A stretch of 35,754 nt of DNA. Origin: Fimbriimonadaceae bacterium. Its GTDB lineage: Bacteria > Armatimonadota > UBA10988. Position 1 is the stretch's first letter. Each line of letters opens with the position of its first letter. The translations under genes and the position numbers were made by a program. The notes below the pieces were generated by a model, which saw only the letters and a list, made by a program, of their open reading frames with translations, was not told the DNA's origin and ran no database searches. Of this stretch, positions 3,861-35,313 are shown piece after piece. Where the stretch lies: contig JADZEX010000091.1 in assembly GCA_020850355.1 (NCBI GenBank), positions 1 through 35,754 on the forward strand, in the 5' to 3' direction.

Positions 3861-3876
3861 GGTTTCACGTGCAACA
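3861..3876. promoter_or_regulatory. Degenerate parS-like site (cluster A)
   Basis: GGTTTCACGTGCAACA differs from the 16-bp parS consensus TGTTTCACGTGAAACA at the first base and at one arm base. It lies 46 bases before a perfect site, so it may be a decayed or weak ParB site. Confidence 0.45.
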
Positions 3877-3906
3877 GCCGCCGCCTGGTCGGCCGACCGG
3901 AGGGGC

Positions 3907-3922
3907 TGTTTCACGTGAAACA
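3907..3922. promoter_or_regulatory. parS: parS site (cluster A, perfect 16-mer)
   Basis: A perfect TGTTTCACGTGAAACA palindrome, 115 bases before the parA start. Its position could let ParB influence parA-parB expression as well as serve as a centromere. Confidence 0.95.
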
Positions 3923-3986
3923 CGGCGGGCCGGCAACCGCTGTGGCAGGGTCCGGGGCGACGGTGGCGCGAGCGGGAGGCGGGAGC

Positions 3987-4002
3987 TGTTTCACGTGAAA
4001 CA
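3987..4002. promoter_or_regulatory. parS: parS site (cluster A, perfect 16-mer)
   Basis: A perfect TGTTTCACGTGAAACA palindrome ending 19 bases before the parA start codon, next to its ribosome site. ParB bound here would lie on the parA promoter or leader region. Confidence 0.95.
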
Positions 4003-7902: not shown

Positions 7903-7918
7903 TGTTTCACGTGAAACA
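7903..7918. promoter_or_regulatory. parS: parS site (cluster B, perfect 16-mer)
   Basis: A perfect TGTTTCACGTGAAACA, 12 bases after the stop of the ceramidase-like ORF. First of four sites in a 306-base gene-free gap. Confidence 0.95.
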
Positions 7919-7954
7919 GGACCAGCCGGCGGCGGCGCGACGGAGGCCTGCGGC

Positions 7955-7970
7955 TGTTTCACGTGAAACT
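7955..7970. promoter_or_regulatory. parS: parS site (cluster B, 15/16)
   Basis: The 14-bp core is perfect; the last base of the 16-mer is T. It starts 52 bases after the previous site. Confidence 0.9.
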
Positions 7971-8010
7971 CCGACGGCCGGGCCGCCAGTCAGCCCGCGG
8001 GTGCGCGGCC

Positions 8011-8026
8011 TGTTTCACGTGAAACA
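8011..8026. promoter_or_regulatory. parS: parS site (cluster B, perfect 16-mer)
   Basis: A perfect 16-mer starting 56 bases after the previous site. Apart from parS I see nothing convincing in 7892-8197; the spacer 8027-8144 holds only a small ORF remnant. Confidence 0.95.
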
Positions 8027-8144
8027 GGGGTGGGCTGCGCGCAGCGCCTCCCAGCCGCGGCGACAGGAGCCATGCTTGGATTGTGAAATGGAACGCCGCG
8101 GCGGCGGTTCCTGAGCACTGAGCAAGGACGGCGGCCCGCGGCGC

Positions 8145-8160
8145 TGTTTCACGTGAAACA
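8145..8160. promoter_or_regulatory. parS: parS site (cluster B, perfect 16-mer)
   Basis: A perfect 16-mer 37 bases before the aminotransferase start. Its internal GTG is in frame with that gene and can be miscalled as a start codon (8153). Confidence 0.95.
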
Positions 8161-14376: not shown

Positions 14377-15114
14377 TCAAATCCCCAACGCCACGGCCAC
14401 CAGGACCGTGGTCTCAACCAACTCGACAGAAGCCCCATAGACGTCGCCGCTGAGGCCACCAAGCCGCTGCAGCGCGACGCGGAACAGCCACCAGGCGGCG
14501 GCCAGACCGACCAGCAGGGCGGGCCAGACCGCCGGCCCGCAGAGCAGCCCGACGGCGACGGTAGTCAGGCCGGCGATGACCTGCTCGCGCCGCCCGAGGC
14601 CACGACCGAGCTGCGCCGCCAGCCCGGTCGGCCGGGCCAACGGGTAGTGGGCCGCCGCGCAGACGATCACCCCACGAGCGACGGTCGTCGCCGCCACCAG
14701 GGCCGGTCCGAGTTTCACGTGAAACAGGGCACCGAGGGCCGCCAGTTTCACGTGAAACAGCAGCGCCAGTCCAACCAACGCAAACGCCCCGGTGTGCGGG
14801 TCCTGCAAGATGGCCAGGCGTTTGGCGCGGTCGGCAGGCACCCAGAGCGCGTCGCACAGGTCGCACCAGCCATCGAGGTGGAGCCCGCCGGTCAGGGCCA
14901 CCCAGCAGACCAGCAGCAGCGCGGCCCGCAGCCAGTGGGCCGCCTGACCGCCGAGCGGCGCGAGCAGACCGGCCAGCAGCCAGAGTAGCAGCCCCAAGCC
15001 AGCGCCGACCGCGGGGTACCAGGCCATCGCCCGACCAGGCGGCGCCGGGTCGTCCCAGTCCGGCCGTACCGGCAGCCGAGTCAGCAGGCTGATGGCGCGG
15101 CGCAGGTCATTCAT
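14377..15114 (-). CDS. cobS: Adenosylcobinamide-GDP ribazoletransferase CobS
   Basis: An integral-membrane enzyme that joins adenosylcobinamide-GDP to alpha-ribazole (phosphate), the final assembly step of cobalamin. It has 245 residues. The metal/substrate motif GGLHLDGWCDLCDAL is at about 76-90 and ILQDPHTGAFALVGLALL follows at 102-119; several membrane segments complete the protein. Unusually, two parS palindromes are read in frame as FHVK at residues 120-123 and 131-134, in the segment where relatives have a Lys followed by an Ala/Leu-rich stretch. The start at 15114 overlaps cobT by eight bases. Confidence 0.95.
   Translation of the reverse strand: MNDLRRAISLLTRLPVRPDWDDPAPPGRAMAWYPAVGAGLGLLLWLLAGLLAPLGGQAAHWLRAALLLVCWVALTGGLHLDGWCDLCDALWVPADRAKRLAILQDPHTGAFALVGLALLFHVKLAALGALFHVKLGPALVAATTVARGVIVCAAAHYPLARPTGLAAQLGRGLGRREQVIAGLTTVAVGLLCGPAVWPALLVGLAAAWWLFRVALQRLGGLSGDVYGASVELVETTVLVAVALGI
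14711..14726. promoter_or_regulatory. parS: parS site inside cobS (cluster C, 15/16)
   Basis: A perfect 14-bp core with A at the first base of the 16-mer. It is read on the minus strand as FHVK, residues 131-134 of CobS. Confidence 0.88.
14744..14759. promoter_or_regulatory. parS: parS site inside cobS (cluster C, 15/16)
   Basis: A perfect 14-bp core with A at the first base. Exactly 33 bases (11 codons) from its neighbour, so both are read as FHVK in the same frame (residues 120-123 here). Confidence 0.88.
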
Positions 15115-19764: not shown

Positions 19765-19780
19765 TGTTTCACGTGAAACA
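19765..19780. promoter_or_regulatory. parS: parS site (cluster D, perfect 16-mer)
   Basis: A perfect 16-mer in the 218-base divergent gap between the PLP enzyme and the mannosidase, so it lies in or near their promoters. Confidence 0.95.
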
Positions 19781-19809
19781 GGCCCTGCCCCGGGCGGCGC
19801 CGCGCCCGG

Positions 19810-19825
19810 CGTTTCACGTGAAACA
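19810..19825. promoter_or_regulatory. parS: parS site (cluster D, 15/16)
   Basis: A perfect 14-bp core with C at the first base, 45 bases after the previous site and about 50 bases before a TATGCT -10-like element (19877-19882) of the mannosidase gene. Confidence 0.9.
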
Positions 19826-19903: not shown

Positions 19904-22603
19904 ATGGCACGGCGGGTCCACTATGTCCTCAGCACGCACTGGGATCGCGAGTGGTACCAGTCCTTCCAAGACTACCGCGCGCGGCTGGTGCAACTGCTCG
20001 ACCGGGTGCTCGATGGCCTGGCGAGCGGTGTCCTGGCCGGCCCGTTCACCTGCGACGGCCAGGCCATCATCCTGGAGGACTACCTCGAAATCCGTCCCGA
20101 GCGGCGGGCCCAGATCGCCGAGTTCGTCGCCGCCGGGCGCCTCGTGGTCGGGCCGTGGTATGTCTTGCCGGACGAGTTCCTGGTGAGCGGTGAGGCGCTG
20201 GTTCGCAACTTGCGGCTGGGGCGGGAGGTCGCGCGGCAGTTCGGCGGCACGCCCTCGTCGGCTGGCTTCGCCTGCGACCTGTTCGGCCACCACAGCCAGC
20301 TTCCGCAGATCCTGGCCGGCTGCGGTATTGGCTTCGCCATCGTCTGGCGCGGCCTGAACAGCATCGAGCACCGCAACCTGCTCTGGCGCGGGGCTGACGG
20401 CACGACGCTCCCGGTGCTGCGGTTCGGCTGTCACGGCTACTGCAGCTACGACTTCTTCGTGCGCCACGCCAATGATCACCGGCACCAGCCCTCCCGCGAG
20501 GCAACCTTGGCCGATCTCGACCGCTGGCTGGCCGCCGAAGCCGCCGCCACCGTGGTCGATCCGATCCTGATGTTCGACGGGGGCGATCACCTGGAGTGGA
20601 ACGAGGCAAACTACGCGATACTGCGGGAGCGGTTCGGGCAACACGGCGACTTCGAGATCGTCCACTCGAGCCTCGATGCCTACGGCTGCGAGTTGCTGGC
20701 GCAGCGCGATCGGATCGCCGCCGAAGTCAGCGGCGAGCTGCGCGAGCCAGCCAGTCTGCCGAGCGACCAGGACAACCAGTGGCTGATTCCGGGTGTGCTG
20801 GCCAGCCGGGTCTGGATCAAGCAGCAGAACGCCGCCTGCCAGGACCTGCTCTGCCTCTGGGCGGAGCCCCTGGCGGCAGTCGCGAGCAGCGCGCTGGGCG
20901 ATCCGGCGCCGGACGGCTACCTGCAGGTCGCCTGGCGCTGGCTGTTGCAGAATCACCCCCATGACAGCATCTGCGGCTGCAGCATCGACCAGGTCCACGA
21001 CGACATGGTCTACCGCTTCAGCCAATGTCGCCAGATCGGTGAGGGCGTCGCCGACCGGGCCGCTCACCGCCTGACGGCTGCGGTCGCCGGGGACCTGGCC
21101 GATGGCGAGCTCCGCGTCGGGGTGTTCAATCCGCTGCCGCAAGCAGTCGATCGGGTCGTCGAGCTGGAGCTGCCGATTCCGGCCGAGTGGCCGAGCTTCC
21201 AGGAGTTCTTCGGTTTCGAGGCCAAGCCGGGCTTCCGGATCTACGGGCCGGACGGCGCCGAGTTGCCGTACCAGCGCCTGGCGCAGCGACCGCAGGTCAC
21301 CCACAAGCGCTTGCCGCCGAGGTGCTTCCCGGGCACCTACCGCTGTCACCACGTCACCGTGGCCCTCCGCCTGCCGATCCCGGCGCTTGGGTACACCACG
21401 CTGACGGTGCGACGGGCGGGGCCCGGCGAGCCGACCCGCTACCCGACGACGCCGGCCCAGGCCAGCAGCGAGCGAGGCTGCAGCAACGGGCTGCTGTCGT
21501 TGACGATCCAGCCGAACGGCGCGGTCGACCTGCTGGACCAGCGCACCGGACGGCGCTACGAGCGGCTGCTGACCTTCGAGTCGGTGGCCGACATCGGCGA
21601 TGGCTGGTACCACGGCCAGGCCGTCAACGACCAGGTCCAGGTCTCGTCCGGTGCTCACGCTGAGCTCGCCCTGGTCGCCGACGGCCCGCTGCAGACCACG
21701 TTCCTGGTGCGCACCCATCTGCGGCTGGCGACCGACTTCGACTTTGGCCGCATGACGCGCAACCAGCAGACCGTCGAGCAGGTGATCGAGTCCCGCCTGA
21801 CGCTACGCGCGGGTTGCGACTGGCTGGAGGTCGAGACGCGGCTGGTCAACCAGGCAGCCGACCAGCGGCTGCGCGTCCTCAATCCCTCTGGCTGCCGCAA
21901 GGCCGCTACCTGGTGGGCCGACAGCCCGTTCGACGCCCTCGAGCGGCCCATCGCGCTGCGGGCCGACAACCACACCTACCGGGAGCTGGAGGTCGAGACC
22001 AAGCCACAGCAGAGCTGGTCGGCGGTCTGCGATGCCAGCGGCGGCCTGGCCGTGGTGACCACCGGACTCTTGGAGACCGCGGTCCGCGACCTGCCGGAGC
22101 GGCCTTTGGCGCTGACCCTCCTGCGCAGCACGCGCCGCACGGTGATGACCGACGGGGAGCCGGGTGGCCTGCTGCTGGGCAAAGAGCTGGTGTTCCGCTA
22201 TCGCCTGGTACCGCTCAGCGGCCCACCGGATCCGGTGCAGCTCGGACGCCTGGCGCAGGACCTGGCGGCTGGGCTGCGGAGCGTCGCGCTGCAGCCGGCC
22301 GACCTGGCGATCGAGCGTCCCACGGCGGCCGTACCAGCGGCAGCCGGCCGGCTCGCGGTGACCGGCGAGGTGCTCGTGAGCAGCGTGCGTGACGTCGCCG
22401 GTGGGCTGGAGGTACGGCTGTTCAACCCGACTGCCCGCCCCACGGTGGCCAGGCTGTCCTTCGACGCCGCCCTCGGCGCACTGCCTGTTCAGGCGACGCA
22501 GGTCGATCTGGAGTCCACCCCACTGGCGGACCTGCCCTGCCCTGGTGGCGGCTGCCAGGTGGCCGTGGCCCCGAAGCAACTGACGACGATCCGTTTCACG
22601 TGA
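19904..22603 (+). CDS. Glycoside hydrolase family 38 alpha-mannosidase-like enzyme
   Basis: An 899-residue GH38-type retaining glycosidase, probably cytoplasmic (no signal peptide), likely acting on alpha-mannosides or mannosylglycerate-type substrates. The zinc ligands His12 and Asp14 lie in LSTHWDREWYQSF. The nucleophile is Asp125 in SAGFACDLFGHHSQLPQIL, and a second metal/substrate motif is NHPHDSICGCSIDQVHDDM from residue 350. The central and C-terminal beta domains follow. The ATG at 19904 with GGGAG at 19893-19897 is chosen; the frame extends up to 19712 through parS DNA without family sequence. The last codons ATC CGT TTC ACG TGA lie inside a parS site, which therefore supplies the stop codon. 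Confidence 0.92.
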   Translation: MARRVHYVLSTHWDREWYQSFQDYRARLVQLLDRVLDGLASGVLAGPFTCDGQAIILEDYLEIRPERRAQIAEFVAAGRLVVGPWYVLPDEFLVSGEALVRNLRLGREVARQFGGTPSSAGFACDLFGHHSQLPQILAGCGIGFAIVWRGLNSIEHRNLLWRGADGTTLPVLRFGCHGYCSYDFFVRHANDHRHQPSREATLADLDRWLAAEAAATVVDPILMFDGGDHLEWNEANYAILRERFGQHGDFEIVHSSLDAYGCELLAQRDRIAAEVSGELREPASLPSDQDNQWLIPGVLASRVWIKQQNAACQDLLCLWAEPLAAVASSALGDPAPDGYLQVAWRWLLQNHPHDSICGCSIDQVHDDMVYRFSQCRQIGEGVADRAAHRLTAAVAGDLADGELRVGVFNPLPQAVDRVVELELPIPAEWPSFQEFFGFEAKPGFRIYGPDGAELPYQRLAQRPQVTHKRLPPRCFPGTYRCHHVTVALRLPIPALGYTTLTVRRAGPGEPTRYPTTPAQASSERGCSNGLLSLTIQPNGAVDLLDQRTGRRYERLLTFESVADIGDGWYHGQAVNDQVQVSSGAHAELALVADGPLQTTFLVRTHLRLATDFDFGRMTRNQQTVEQVIESRLTLRAGCDWLEVETRLVNQAADQRLRVLNPSGCRKAATWWADSPFDALERPIALRADNHTYRELEVETKPQQSWSAVCDASGGLAVVTTGLLETAVRDLPERPLALTLLRSTRRTVMTDGEPGGLLLGKELVFRYRLVPLSGPPDPVQLGRLAQDLAAGLRSVALQPADLAIERPTAAVPAAAGRLAVTGEVLVSSVRDVAGGLEVRLFNPTARPTVARLSFDAALGALPVQATQVDLESTPLADLPCPGGGCQVAVAPKQLTTIRFT

Positions 22604-22607
22604 AACA
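22592..22607. promoter_or_regulatory. parS: parS site overlapping the mannosidase stop (cluster E, 15/16)
   Basis: A perfect 14-bp core with C at the first base. The TGA stop of the mannosidase gene (22601-22603) is the central TGA of the palindrome, so the site encodes the C-terminal Arg-Phe-Thr. Confidence 0.9.
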
Positions 22608-22646
22608 CGGCAGCGGCGCCCCCACAGGTGCGCGCCGCGACCGCGC

Positions 22647-22662
22647 CGTTTCACGTGAAACA
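22647..22662. promoter_or_regulatory. parS: parS site (cluster E, 15/16)
   Basis: A perfect 14-bp core with C at the first base, 55 bases from the previous site, in a gap between convergent genes. Confidence 0.9.
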
Positions 22663-22702
22663 GGCTGGTCCTCGCCAGCACCCCGCCCAGGGGCGCCGCC
22701 AC

Positions 22703-22718
22703 TGTTTCACGTGAAACA
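22703..22718. promoter_or_regulatory. parS: parS site (cluster E, perfect 16-mer)
   Basis: A perfect 16-mer, 56 bases from the previous site and 12 bases beyond the end of the convergent minus-strand gene. Confidence 0.95.
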
Positions 22719-26648: not shown

Positions 26649-26680
26649 CCGCCGGCTGTTTCACGTGAAACAGCCGGCGG
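26649..26680. promoter_or_regulatory. parS: parS site in a 32-bp perfect palindrome (cluster F)
   Basis: The perfect 16-mer at 26657-26672 is extended by GC-rich arms (CCGCCGGC / GCCGGCGG) into a 32-bp perfect inverted repeat just after the secreted-protein gene. It could fold as a terminator-like RNA hairpin, although no T-run follows. Confidence 0.93.
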
Positions 26681-26712
26681 CGCCCTCCGCGTGCCGACCC
26701 GCCGCGCGGTCG

Positions 26713-26728
26713 TGTTTCACGTGAAACA
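26713..26728. promoter_or_regulatory. parS: parS site (cluster F, perfect 16-mer)
   Basis: A perfect 16-mer, 56 bases after the 16-mer of the previous site, between convergent genes. Confidence 0.95.
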
Positions 26729-26780
26729 GCGACTCCAGCGTGCTGCTGCCCGACCGCACCGCCTGGCCGCGGCGGCGGCG

Positions 26781-26796
26781 TGTTTCACGTGAAACA
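26781..26796. promoter_or_regulatory. parS: parS site (cluster F, perfect 16-mer)
   Basis: A perfect 16-mer 68 bases after the previous site and 31 bases past the end of the small membrane-protein gene. Confidence 0.95.
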
Positions 26797-26827
26797 GCGG
26801 GTAGCCACCGCAACCGGCAAGTCCAGT

Positions 26828-27145
26828 TCAGCGTGAGCGCGGCCACCACTGCAGCAGGCCGGCCAGCAACAGCGGCGCCGACATCGCCCAGCGCGTGAAG
26901 TTGTGGTGGTAGAACCGCCACGTCAGCGCCGCCAGCAGCACCAGGGCCAGGCCGCCCAACACGGGGTGGCGCCACGCCAGGCCAGTGGCCACCAGGATCA
27001 GAGTGCCCGGCAGCAGGTGCAGCAGCAGCCCCCACAGGCCTTCGCTGACACCGTCCAGCAGCCCGAAGCCGACCCAGAACAGGCCAACCGCCAAGCCCAG
27101 CAGCAACCCGTAGTTGGCTGGTTGGGTCCACCAGGAGGTCTGCAT
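26828..27145 (-). CDS. Small integral membrane protein of unknown function
   Basis: A 105-residue protein that is almost entirely hydrophobic, with about four membrane segments (YGLLLGLAVGLFWVGFGLL, LWGLLLHLLPGTLILVATGLA, PVLGGLALVLLAALTWRFY, WAMSAPLLLAGLLQWW). The ATG at 27145 has GGGAG eight bases upstream; an earlier in-frame start at 27196 adds an Arg-rich stretch and is less likely. I do not recognise a family. It lies between parS cluster F and the tandem 117-bp repeats. Confidence 0.7.
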   Translation of the reverse strand: MQTSWWTQPANYGLLLGLAVGLFWVGFGLLDGVSEGLWGLLLHLLPGTLILVATGLAWRHPVLGGLALVLLAALTWRFYHHNFTRWAMSAPLLLAGLLQWWPRSR

Positions 27146-27185: not shown

Positions 27186-27302
27186 GCGCAGGACAAGCGG
27201 GAGGTTGCCGTCGGCCATCGCGCTGAGCCCCGAAGGGGCGACTCAAGCTAGCCCGGGGCAACGCCCTGGGCAGCCCGCCACGGCAGAGTCCGAGTCGTCC
27301 GC
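27186..27302 (+). repeat. 117-bp direct repeat, copy 1 (two hairpins)
   Basis: Matches copy 2 (27359-27475) at all but two adjacent positions. It holds hairpin GCCCC-GAA-GGGGC (27227-27239) and a 9-bp stem GCCCGGGGC-AAC-GCCCTGGGC (27251-27271). The region 27146-27624 has no convincing gene. Confidence 0.92.
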
Positions 27303-27358
27303 GCTCCTGTGAGGCGGAGGGTGCACCGGAACACGGCCGGCGGCGCGGCGCAGCCGTC

Positions 27359-27475
27359 GCGCAGGACAAGCAAGAGGTTGCCGTCGGCCATCGCGCTGAG
27401 CCCCGAAGGGGCGACTCAAGCTAGCCCGGGGCAACGCCCTGGGCAGCCCGCCACGGCAGAGTCCGAGTCGTCCGC
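27359..27475 (+). repeat. 117-bp direct repeat, copy 2 (two hairpins)
   Basis: Second copy, 173 bases downstream of the first, same orientation, AA instead of GG at the 14th-15th positions. It keeps both hairpins. The 56-base sequence between copies is unrelated and Arg/Gly-codon-like but not a credible gene. Confidence 0.92.
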
Positions 27476-27624: not shown

Positions 27625-28374
27625 TCAGAACTGCCAACCGATCCCGAACATCGGCCCCGACATGCGGAAGTTCACGAAGTCCGGGTCGTCCTTGGCCTTG
27701 AGCTGGAACAGGCGGTAGACGGCGGTGACTCGCAGGTACTGATCTGGGTTCAGCGAGACACCCGCCTCGAGGTTGTAGAGGTGGCCGTACTTGCCGGCAC
27801 TGATGCCGGCGGCCTCGGCGTAGAGGTCGAGGATCTTGGACGGGGTCAGATGGATGGTCACCCCAGGGTTGGGCAGGGGCAGCAGCGCGCTTTGGCGCTC
27901 GGCGATGCCGCGAGCGGGGACATTCAGGGTCGCATCGCCGAAGGCTGTCGTGACATTGAACAGCAGACCCACCTGGACTTGCTTCCACTGTAGCGGTTCC
28001 CAGTGGTAGCCGAGGTTCAGGAGGTTGACATTGAGCGAGCTGAGCACGCGGTCGCCAAGGACGTAGGCCGTGCCGTCGTAGGTGAAGGTGCGGGTCAGGA
28101 CGTTGTCGCCAGCGTACGACCAGTTGGTGTAGCCGAGCCGCAGCGAGCTGCGGCGGCCCCACTGCCACCGCGCCCGCAACTCGGGGAAGTTGCGGTTGCG
28201 GATCCCCAGGTCGGTGGCGAAGTCGACCGTGTCGGCGAGTCCGGCCGACTGCCGCACCGAGCCCTTGAGGTCTGGGAACCAGGCCAGCAGGTCGATGTCA
28301 ACACTGGCCCGGGCCGGCGACCCGAGCGCGGCGCAGAGGCCGCAGGTCAGGAGCAGACGAGGCAGCGCCAGCAT
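27625..28374 (-). CDS. Putative outer-membrane beta-barrel protein
   Basis: A 249-residue exported protein. The signal peptide MLALPRLLLTCGLCAALGSPARA leads to alternating strands (VDIDLLAWFPDLKGSV, SSLRLGYTNWSY, LNVNLLNLGYHW, QVQVGLLFNVTTAFGD, YLRVTAVYRLFQLKA) and the C-terminal FGIGWQF, ending in Phe as barrel proteins do. No specific family or substrate can be named. The ATG at 28374 has GGAG seven bases upstream; the GTG at 28377 immediately before it is an alternative. It is divergent from the TIM-barrel gene at 28579. Confidence 0.8.
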   Translation of the reverse strand: MLALPRLLLTCGLCAALGSPARASVDIDLLAWFPDLKGSVRQSAGLADTVDFATDLGIRNRNFPELRARWQWGRRSSLRLGYTNWSYAGDNVLTRTFTYDGTAYVLGDRVLSSLNVNLLNLGYHWEPLQWKQVQVGLLFNVTTAFGDATLNVPARGIAERQSALLPLPNPGVTIHLTPSKILDLYAEAAGISAGKYGHLYNLEAGVSLNPDQYLRVTAVYRLFQLKAKDDPDFVNFRMSGPMFGIGWQF

Positions 28375-28513
28375 CACAGCACTCCATTCCGGGGCGGCGA
28401 CCTGCGGCCTGAGAGAGCGTCGGCGAACCGCTGGGCCGTCGCCCCTGCAGCGGTGCAGGCCCGATTACGCAGCGCCGCCGGCAGTCCTCCAGTCGGCGTC
28501 CGTGGTCCGCGGG

Positions 28514-35023: not shown

Positions 35024-35051
35024 GCCCGCTGTTTCACGTGAAACAGCGGGC
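35024..35051. promoter_or_regulatory. parS: parS site in a 28-bp perfect palindrome (cluster G)
   Basis: The perfect 16-mer at 35030-35045 is extended by GCCCGC / GCGGGC into a 28-bp inverted repeat. First of four sites in a 456-base gap (34949-35404) between convergent genes that contains nothing else I can support apart from the preceding hairpin. Confidence 0.93.
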
Positions 35052-35124
35052 GCCCGTGGTGGTGGAGGCCGTCCCAACGTCGCACCGCGGCGACGCCCGC
35101 GTGGGTCAGCGGCGATCAGCCGGC

Positions 35125-35140
35125 TGTTTCACGTGAAACC
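35125..35140. promoter_or_regulatory. parS: parS site (cluster G, 15/16)
   Basis: A perfect 14-bp core with C as the last base, 95 bases after the previous 16-mer. Confidence 0.9.
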
Positions 35141-35214
35141 GGTTGGCTACCTCGGCGGCGCCTGGCATCGGTCGCCTCGTGCGGTGGGCGGTCCGGCGGG
35201 TCGACCCCGGTCGC

Positions 35215-35230
35215 TGTTTCACGTGAAACA
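35215..35230. promoter_or_regulatory. parS: parS site (cluster G, perfect 16-mer)
   Basis: A perfect 16-mer, 90 bases after the previous site. Confidence 0.95.
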
Positions 35231-35297
35231 GGGGCCACCGCCGACACCGCCGGTGGGGCGCTGGGCGGAGACCTCAGCGGGCTGCGGTCGCGGTTGC

Positions 35298-35313
35298 TGT
35301 TTCACGTGAAACA
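35298..35313. promoter_or_regulatory. parS: parS site (cluster G, perfect 16-mer)
   Basis: A perfect 16-mer, 83 bases after the previous site and 92 bases beyond the end of the convergent gene at 35405. Confidence 0.95.

Follow-up and report, generated by a model that had tools for sequence, protein, structure and literature searches.

Tandem copies of an Acido-Lenti-1 repeat in a Fimbriimonadaceae genome, a very likely REP-like mobile element with a subclass-1.2-type Y1 HUH transposase as partner

The systems closest to the repeat described here are the REP elements and REPINs that accompany RAYT (TnpA-REP) transposases, and the REPtrons, in which the repeats flank a Y1 HUH transposase gene. 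According to the excerpts of the papers on which this comparison draws, in vitro processing of single-stranded REP DNA by the E. coli TnpA-REP depends on the palindrome and on a motif before the palindrome (PMC8266576), and a 2013 study described both REPs in Planctomycetes and Verrucomicrobia and transposase genes flanked by inverted repeats (Di Nocera 2013, PMC3733652). The inverted repeats of the latter TIRtrons are in some cases doubly palindromic and in some cases belong to repeat families (PMC3733652). The excerpted classification of Y1 transposases places 26 TIRYT examples in subclasses 2.1, 2.2, and 2.5 and none in subclass 1.2; this last subclass (TnpA-Y1) is characterized by the motifs DH[IV]H, WQ, and YIKNQKEHH and a median length of 148 aa, and its table entry reads 'no' for REP and Cyanobacteria/Bacteroidetes for taxa (Quentin 2018, PMC6006769). 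Acido-Lenti-1 was discovered by Weinberg 2010 (PMC2864571), where the taxa given are Acidobacteria and Lentisphaerae, and it is filed in Rfam as RF01687, type sRNA, function unknown. An annotation paper on Vibrio anguillarum names Acido-Lenti-1, and a 2026 paper (PMC13298647) raises the possibility that protease genes of Tannerella are regulated by nearby Acido-Lenti-1 "ncRNAs", both sources being cited from excerpts. The literature searched, whose scope excluded most subscription papers and preprints, gave no report, in the portions covered, that linked Acido-Lenti-1 or subclass 1.2 to REPs, and the passages on Acido-Lenti-1 therein contain no mention of REPs or of a transposase partner.

The window, i.e., the whole 35,754-nt stretch of DNA that was analyzed, belongs to a Fimbriimonadaceae genome of 6.67 Mb in 117 contigs. 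It carries two same-strand 117-bp direct repeats with a start-to-start spacing of 173, which are identical at 115 of 117 positions (98%), the two differing bases being adjacent (GG vs. AA). This agrees with a preliminary description of the locus, as do the two hairpins per copy with loops GAA and AAC, both of which are read directly in the sequence. The same description placed the pair between two genes: it does lie between two minus-strand ORFs (26661-27131 and 27625-28377), but neither of them has a Pfam match, and thus their gene status stays putative. Other mechanical ORFs extend into the 117-bp repeats, and the listing of Tandem Repeats Finder is without the pair. The folding energy of the 117-mer (z from -0.86 to -1.80) is unexceptional for such G+C-rich DNA and was dropped as evidence. 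An ORF neighboring the repeat pair, sought for an empty-site comparison of the locus, had no match in 10 relatives. Coordinates of all features are collected in Table 1.

Table 1. Positions of the repeat units, hairpins, Rfam matches, parS-like clusters, and transposase-adjoining element copies (window numbering unless contig C85 is given)
Feature	Positions	Strand	Basis and remarks
First 117-bp repeat unit	27186-27302	+	Repeat comparison; element duplicated together with flanks of ~40 bp (left) and ~30 bp (right)
Second 117-bp repeat unit	27359-27475	+	Repeat comparison; 2 substitutions vs. first
Acido-Lenti-1 (RF01687) match, core of copy 1	27226-27270	-	cmscan 40.3 bits
Acido-Lenti-1 (RF01687) match, core of copy 2	27399-27443	-	cmscan 40.3 bits
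Hairpin A of copy 1, GCCCC-GAA-GGGGC	27227-27239	+	Sequence; corresponding helix covaries
Linker of copy 1, ending in CTA of foot CTAG	27240-27250	+	Sequence; 11 nt
Hairpin B of copy 1, GCCCGGGGC-AAC-GCCCTGGGC	27251-27271	+	Sequence; corresponding helix covaries
Hairpin A of copy 2, GCCCC-GAA-GGGGC	27400-27412	+	Sequence
Hairpin B of copy 2, GCCCGGGGC-AAC-GCCCTGGGC	27424-27444	+	Sequence
TGTTTCACGTGAAACA clusters	3861-4002, 7903-8160, 14711-14759, 19765-19825, 22592-22718, 26657-26796, 35030-35313		Seven clusters, 2-4 sites each
Element copies beside the C85 transposase gene	C85 48-92, 181-225, 249-293, 853-897, 921-965, 976-1020, 1014-1058		

The core of each 117-bp copy is a two-hairpin element of approximately 46 bp that matches Acido-Lenti-1, both copies scoring above the RF01687 gathering cut-off of 37 bits. 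For copy 1, the Rfam strand is the minus strand, and the order of hairpin A, linker, foot, and hairpin B, termed here the REP orientation, is read on the plus strand. BLAST located the 45-47-bp core at 32 places in the genome at E<=0.01, the window pair included, and the covariance model gave 28 RF01687 matches at E<=1, 14 of them above the cut-off and the weakest being an 18-nt fragment; an exact 29-base pattern had no match among the genome contigs. The preliminary description held that a repeat present only twice genome-wide would favor a simple local duplication. This is true of the full 117-bp unit, which BLAST matched in only two places of the genome, both in the window, but false for the 46-bp core with its 28-32 places. 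Since the 117-bp form is confined to the window, the tandem pair is read as a local duplication around one element, which would have occurred later and included the flanks of that element.

Flank comparison of 26 printed copies revealed that about 50 bp (AGCCCCGAAGGGGCGACTCAAGCnAGCCCAGGGCAACGCCCTGGGCA-like) are common to all, with one copy (L015) in the other orientation. Beyond these ~50 bp the copies diverge, except that some groups, array members among them, have longer flanks in common; one group shares CTCCGGA before and CACGACGGTG after the element. Some copies in the window genome are located at contig ends or in tandem arrays; for instance, the array on contig C95 consists of 91-bp units (delimited by eye), each with one plus copy and one reversed, shortened copy. 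Contigs C85, C95, C66, C49, C7, C104, and C75 have element copies at their ends, so the assembly was probably interrupted by repeats, and the true copy number may be higher than counted. Frames crossing the element carry translated hairpin stretches, e.g., SPGQRPG, in the window (27186-27475) and at two other loci (L082 337-945 and L102 1336-1932). As to the earlier remark that such repeats are often mistranslated, PGQRPG stretches were incidentally observed in reading frames; three such translations were without a Pfam match, and a Pfam family built from mistranslated repeats was rejected as an explanation. Spurious protein sequences may arise from these translated hairpin stretches.

In REP orientation, many copies conform to the arrangement GCCCC-[GA]A[AC]-GGGGC, approximately 12 nt ending in [CT]AG, and then CCCAGGGC-A[AT]C-GCCCTGGG. 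For 112 matches (102 distinct), 98.2% of the paired cells are standard, and 12 of the 13 pairs have changes on both sides, a result that greatly exceeds those of shuffles and slid controls; the underlying alignment was fitted to the model and leans towards it. The four-base foot before hairpin B ends in AG in 229 of the 231 distinct copies of two model-fitted alignments, being nYAG in 208, GTAG in 30, and GTGG in none of them. Acido-Lenti-1 copies therefore carry a foot that is akin to the GTAG found in canonical REPs without being the same, and they depart from the canonical REP foot GT[AG]G.

The window genome encodes two Y1_Tnp (PF01797) genes, and a single gene, C85:337-786, matches protein profile A1 at E<=1e-12. 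It encodes a product of 150 aa, and seven element copies are placed around the gene, at 48-293 and 853-1058. With core copies genome-wide and a Y1 transposase gene embedded among them, the suggestion of the preliminary description that the repeat could be a REP-like mobile element, accompanied by a REP-type transposase, is supported. Similar proteins, also encoded near elements, were found in three relatives (G033, G035, and G006), the G033 match being weak (23.1 bits). The four aligned proteins, each of 150 aa, share invariant DH.H, WQ, and Y...Q..HH motifs and the tail FQ.E...E.DE.YVW. All four have the WQ and Y---Q--HH motifs and the length of ~148 aa typical of subclass 1.2, an assignment that was made by motif against the published table, without reference sequences. 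The HUH motif takes the published form DH[IV]H in two of the four (DHIH or DHVH), and it is DHTH in the window genome and DHCH in G006. The solved structures nearest by sequence to a profile of the four proteins are ISHp608 and related IS608-type transposases. As in subclass 1.2, the genomic copy number is low, with one profile match in the window genome and 1-10 matches per genome among the 85 positives of 291 genomes.

The association of gene and element was analyzed in 79 loci of named genomes, selected solely by their protein (from the best 80 among 431 matches), the record titles of which include Verrucomicrobia, Planctomycetota, Lentisphaerae, Terriglobia, Armatimonadota, Bacteroidetes, and others. 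Occurrence of the repeat in Planctomycetota and Verrucomicrobiota, to which the preliminary description pointed, is thereby confirmed. Elements were detected by covariance model R1, which was built from 13 copies (alignment A3) of genomes G005, G006, G032, G033, G035, and G037 and gives rough E-values; alignment A3 was used instead of the mixed MAFFT alignment A2, in which the 5' arms were offset. An element is located within 500 bp of the gene in 51, 63, and 66 of the 79 loci at E<=0.01, 0.1, and 1, respectively, and elements are present on both sides of the gene in 24, 34, and 38 of them at the same thresholds. The first of these counts departs from the published 'no associated REP' of subclass 1.2, and the same element stands beside a Y1 HUH transposase gene as in REPtrons. 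Element density near the gene is 21 to 23 times that of the remaining locus flanks, and gene-element distances are concentrated at 40-90 bp. As for orientation at E<=0.01, 26 of the 35 nearest upstream copies are on the minus strand, and 32 of the 40 nearest downstream copies are on the plus strand. There was no nearby match, even at E<=1, in 13 of the 79 loci, many of which are from Bacteroidetes. Among 30 loci of the window's own phylum, counted from the model match rows nearest the genes, an element is near the gene in 25 (E<=0.01) or 28 (E<=1), and on both sides in 17 or 24, respectively. As for the two phylum loci with no R1 match, L217 has an RF01687 match 184 bp away and L222 has none. 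These counts include loci within R1 source genomes (L135 among the 79; L203, L205, and L206 among the 30, the copy adjoining the gene in L206 being itself part of R1) and non-independent loci (L198/L202 with identical matches, L139/L149 from one genome, and L126/L192 from one isolate).

As a control we used 28 of the 32 Y1 loci L082-L113, leaving out L082, L090, L094, and L102, which carry a 1.2-type gene; the motifs of the control loci were read from translations, L097 excepted. An element lies within 500 bp in three of the 28 loci at E<=0.01 (L087, L093, and L096) and in seven at E<=1. The former three have the Y...Q..HH motif but a different tail, and the additional matches at E<=1 are in L089 and L092, which have a related motif, and in L084 (E 0.86) and L110 (E 0.19) of other classes. 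Four control loci with Y...Q..HH (L088, L091, L098, and L100) gave no near element in the R1 search; it is thus among enzymes that carry the DE.YVW tail that the link is most evident.

At the level of whole genomes, RF01687 was found in 36 of 39 protein-selected genomes (32 above the cut-off), and as many as 105 matches were counted in one genome; these 39 are the genomes behind 40 of the 79 loci, L164-L202 being left out of the genome-wide RF01687 search. It was also found in 46 of 291 genomes drawn from the window's phylum (31 above the cut-off, under stricter filters and E-limit) and in 9 of 41 genomes drawn from the closest to the phylum level (five above the cut-off), the window genome included. 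The protein profile matches 85 of the 291 phylum genomes at E<=1e-12, and RF01687 occurs in 37 of these 85 vs. 9 of the other 206 (odds ratio 17, p 3e-15). For the full-length-type threshold E<=1e-34, which was picked after seeing the match list, the corresponding counts are 31 of 51 vs. 15 of 240 (odds ratio 23, p 2e-17); both p-values ignore kinship among the 291 related genomes. RF01687 was not found at E<=1e-4 in 20 of the 51 phylum genomes with a full-length-type gene, and 15 of the 46 RF01687-positive ones are without a gene at E<=1e-34; draft incompleteness and repeat divergence may account for these mismatches. One genome of the window's own family (G001) has the transposase gene, with RF01687 not found at E<=1e-3.

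Palindromic dimers of the element, nearly constant in spacing, are seen in several genomes. Among the 150 best-scoring copies listed in the protein-selected genomes, 34 neighboring pairs lie within 300 bp of each other: 29 of them have the -+ order that is also found around the gene (spacing of 79-114 bp in 24 of the 29), five are in the +- order, and none is same-strand. The 78 copies of the phylum relatives form 21 pairs of mixed order (nine -+, seven +-, and five same-strand), and in the window genome 8 of 11 neighboring copies are same-strand. A genome-wide short palindromic repeat and regularly spaced inverted pairs, by which REP/REPIN systems are recognized, are both present. At a locus of another genome (L232 319-1450, G314), 15 same-strand copies, mostly ~71 bp apart and with one reversed at the end, adjoin the transposase gene.

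Larger palindromic units of the form A-B, spacer, A..A', spacer, B'-A', with unrelated outer flanks, were identified in the genome of locus L129 (G046, a Phycisphaerales record with 58 RF01687 matches), and similar ones elsewhere. All 12 central A..A' pairs found by pattern in G046 (L266-L277) are bordered by the arms of such a six-hairpin unit; nine of the 12 units match the full expression, and the other three have mutated arms, as judged by eye. In the nine full units, the hairpin parts are 0.75-0.82 identical, and the 21-26 nt spacers are near the shuffled level (0.40 vs. 0.40 and 0.42 vs. 0.37). Simple recent copying does not explain this pattern of kept hairpins and free spacers. Spacers are conserved in five of six aligned units of G005 and three of four of G067, thus those copies look younger. 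An origin of the six-hairpin units by inverted duplication is not supported, as the spacers within a unit are not complementary beyond chance (p 0.95 and 0.18). We offer as a conjecture, which we hold to be unlikely though conceivable, that Acido-Lenti-1 is the two-hairpin substrate of a separate kind of single-strand transposition system, whose class-1 enzyme reads both hairpins and adds further ones at a set distance from those already present; if true, such insertion would build the G046 units (A-B, 21-26 nt, A..A', 21-26 nt, B'-A'). These six-hairpin units of fixed spacing and free spacers pose the question of how such repeats are assembled or kept.

A separate feature of the window is the palindrome TGTTTCACGTGAAACA, with 21 occurrences at <=2 mismatches, 13 of them exact, where none is expected by chance. 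We take TGTTTCACGTGAAACA to be the parS site bound by ParB. At <=1 mismatch, it occurs 159 times in the window genome vs. 0-6 times in each of 40 relatives, which looks like a genome-wide expansion of parS-like sites. This expansion may be more unusual than the hairpin-repeat finding.

Taken together, it is very likely that the window contains two tandem copies of a REP-like mobile element, Acido-Lenti-1, whose partner is a subclass-1.2-type Y1 HUH transposase. The best reading of Acido-Lenti-1 is a REP-like single-strand DNA element that is not primarily an RNA gene, and by analogy with described systems the element is probably spread by the adjoining transposase. The unit consists of hairpin A, a linker, a short foot ending in AG, and hairpin B (~46 bp), and the proposed partner is a Y1 HUH transposase of ~150 aa with DHxH, WQ, Y...Q..HH, and the tail FQ[DE]E...DE.YVW. 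On the model of IS608 TnpA and E. coli TnpA-REP, the hairpins would fold while the strand is single (lagging-strand template), and the enzyme would bind hairpin and foot, cut next to the element with its tyrosine, and mobilize or copy single elements or inverted pairs, the gene itself being left in low copy. The notion that the tandem pair is only a local duplication of an ordinary intergenic stretch fits the full 117-bp unit, which occurs twice in the genome and nowhere else there, but is extremely improbable given that the 45-47-bp core is found ~28-32 times in the genome and also in dozens of other genomes. Alternatively, Acido-Lenti-1 could be a trans-acting small RNA gene, as Rfam files it, with the transposase as a passenger. 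The existing Rfam entry, to which the structured RNA considered in the preliminary description corresponds, the excerpted table of Weinberg 2010 (PMC2864571; RNA 'y', cis-regulatory 'n'), and the two covarying helices fit such a gene; however, covariation is equally expected for single-strand DNA hairpins, and neither strand nor arrangement evidence favors an RNA function. Mismatches that would be G-U number 19 on the Rfam strand vs. 35 on the opposite one (p 0.04, a guide only, the copies being related); the Rfam strand thus has no excess of wobble pairs, and this count does not support an RNA read from that strand. Tight inverted pairs with near-constant gaps or tandem arrays in several genomes, the up to 105 matches per genome, and the presence of copies at one or both borders of the transposase gene also argue against an RNA gene, which we regard as very improbable.

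The element might instead be a classical IS200-type insertion sequence, in which the hairpins are the ends and the gene is the mobile cargo. The gene is often bounded by inverted elements, typically 40-90 bp away, and the protein is class-1-like (NCBIfam transpos_IS200 matches it, and its nearest structures are IS608-type). Such an insertion sequence is nevertheless improbable in view of one transposase gene against ~28 elements in the window genome, where gene copies moving with hairpin ends, as in IS200 (subclass 1.1), are not seen. Since the profile is matched more than once in a few genomes (10 times at most, in G163), the gene may still be moved in some lineages. It is also possible, if rather doubtful, that Acido-Lenti-1 is a host-maintained structural element (terminator, mRNA stabilizer, or nucleoid/topology site), seeded by transposition and now kept by selection. 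The constant six-hairpin layout of G046 (12 of 12 centers), with free spacers and kept hairpins, and the compensatory changes between copies are consistent with selection of this kind, but the recent-looking copies with conserved spacers in G005 and G067 are not, and the transposase association is not required by it. A host-maintained role is compatible with the REP-like mobile element that we prefer, as a secondary role of the same repeat.

The proposed pairing would supply an orphan Rfam family with a function and, at the same time, an orphan transposase subclass with a substrate, and it is testable with one purified protein and one oligonucleotide. If Acido-Lenti-1 is REP-like DNA, the regulation of Tannerella protease genes suggested in the excerpted 2026 paper (PMC13298647) needs other evidence. 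The system resembles REP/REPIN repeats with RAYT (TnpA-REP), and REPtrons, in its short palindromes, many copies, inverted pairs, and tandem arrays, and it resembles REPtrons in that the elements flank a Y1 HUH transposase gene of low copy number. It differs from REP/RAYT systems in having two hairpins per unit, a foot nnAG (GTAG in 30/231), and a partner of subclass 1.2 type (Y...Q..HH), not of classes 2 or 3. In light of the REPs described in 2013 (PMC3733652, as excerpted), we therefore file it as a variant within the REP/RAYT kind, although it is neither a canonical GTAG-foot member nor does it have a class 2 enzyme. It shares with subclass 1.2, as tabulated in the excerpt of PMC6006769, the WQ and Y---Q--HH motifs, the length of ~148-150 aa, and the low copy number, and differs from the published subclass in that the gene is bounded by Acido-Lenti-1 in most loci and occurs in further phyla; the best reading is that subclass 1.2, which in 2018 was without a REP partner, has one. 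TIRtrons/TIRYT (Di Nocera 2013, PMC3733652, as excerpted) likewise have a Y1 gene bounded by inverted repeats, but an identity with TIRYT was rejected on subclass, as the protein has Y...Q..HH and not Y...NP. The likeness to IS200/IS605 (IS608 TnpA) lies in the transposase domain, matched by sequence profile, and in hairpins near the ends, and the differences are the elements that far outnumber the genes in the window genome and the two-hairpin ends. Finally, the RF01687 'sRNA' has the same sequence and two-hairpin structure as the repeat described here, which we reinterpret as a DNA element whose functional strand would be the opposite one.
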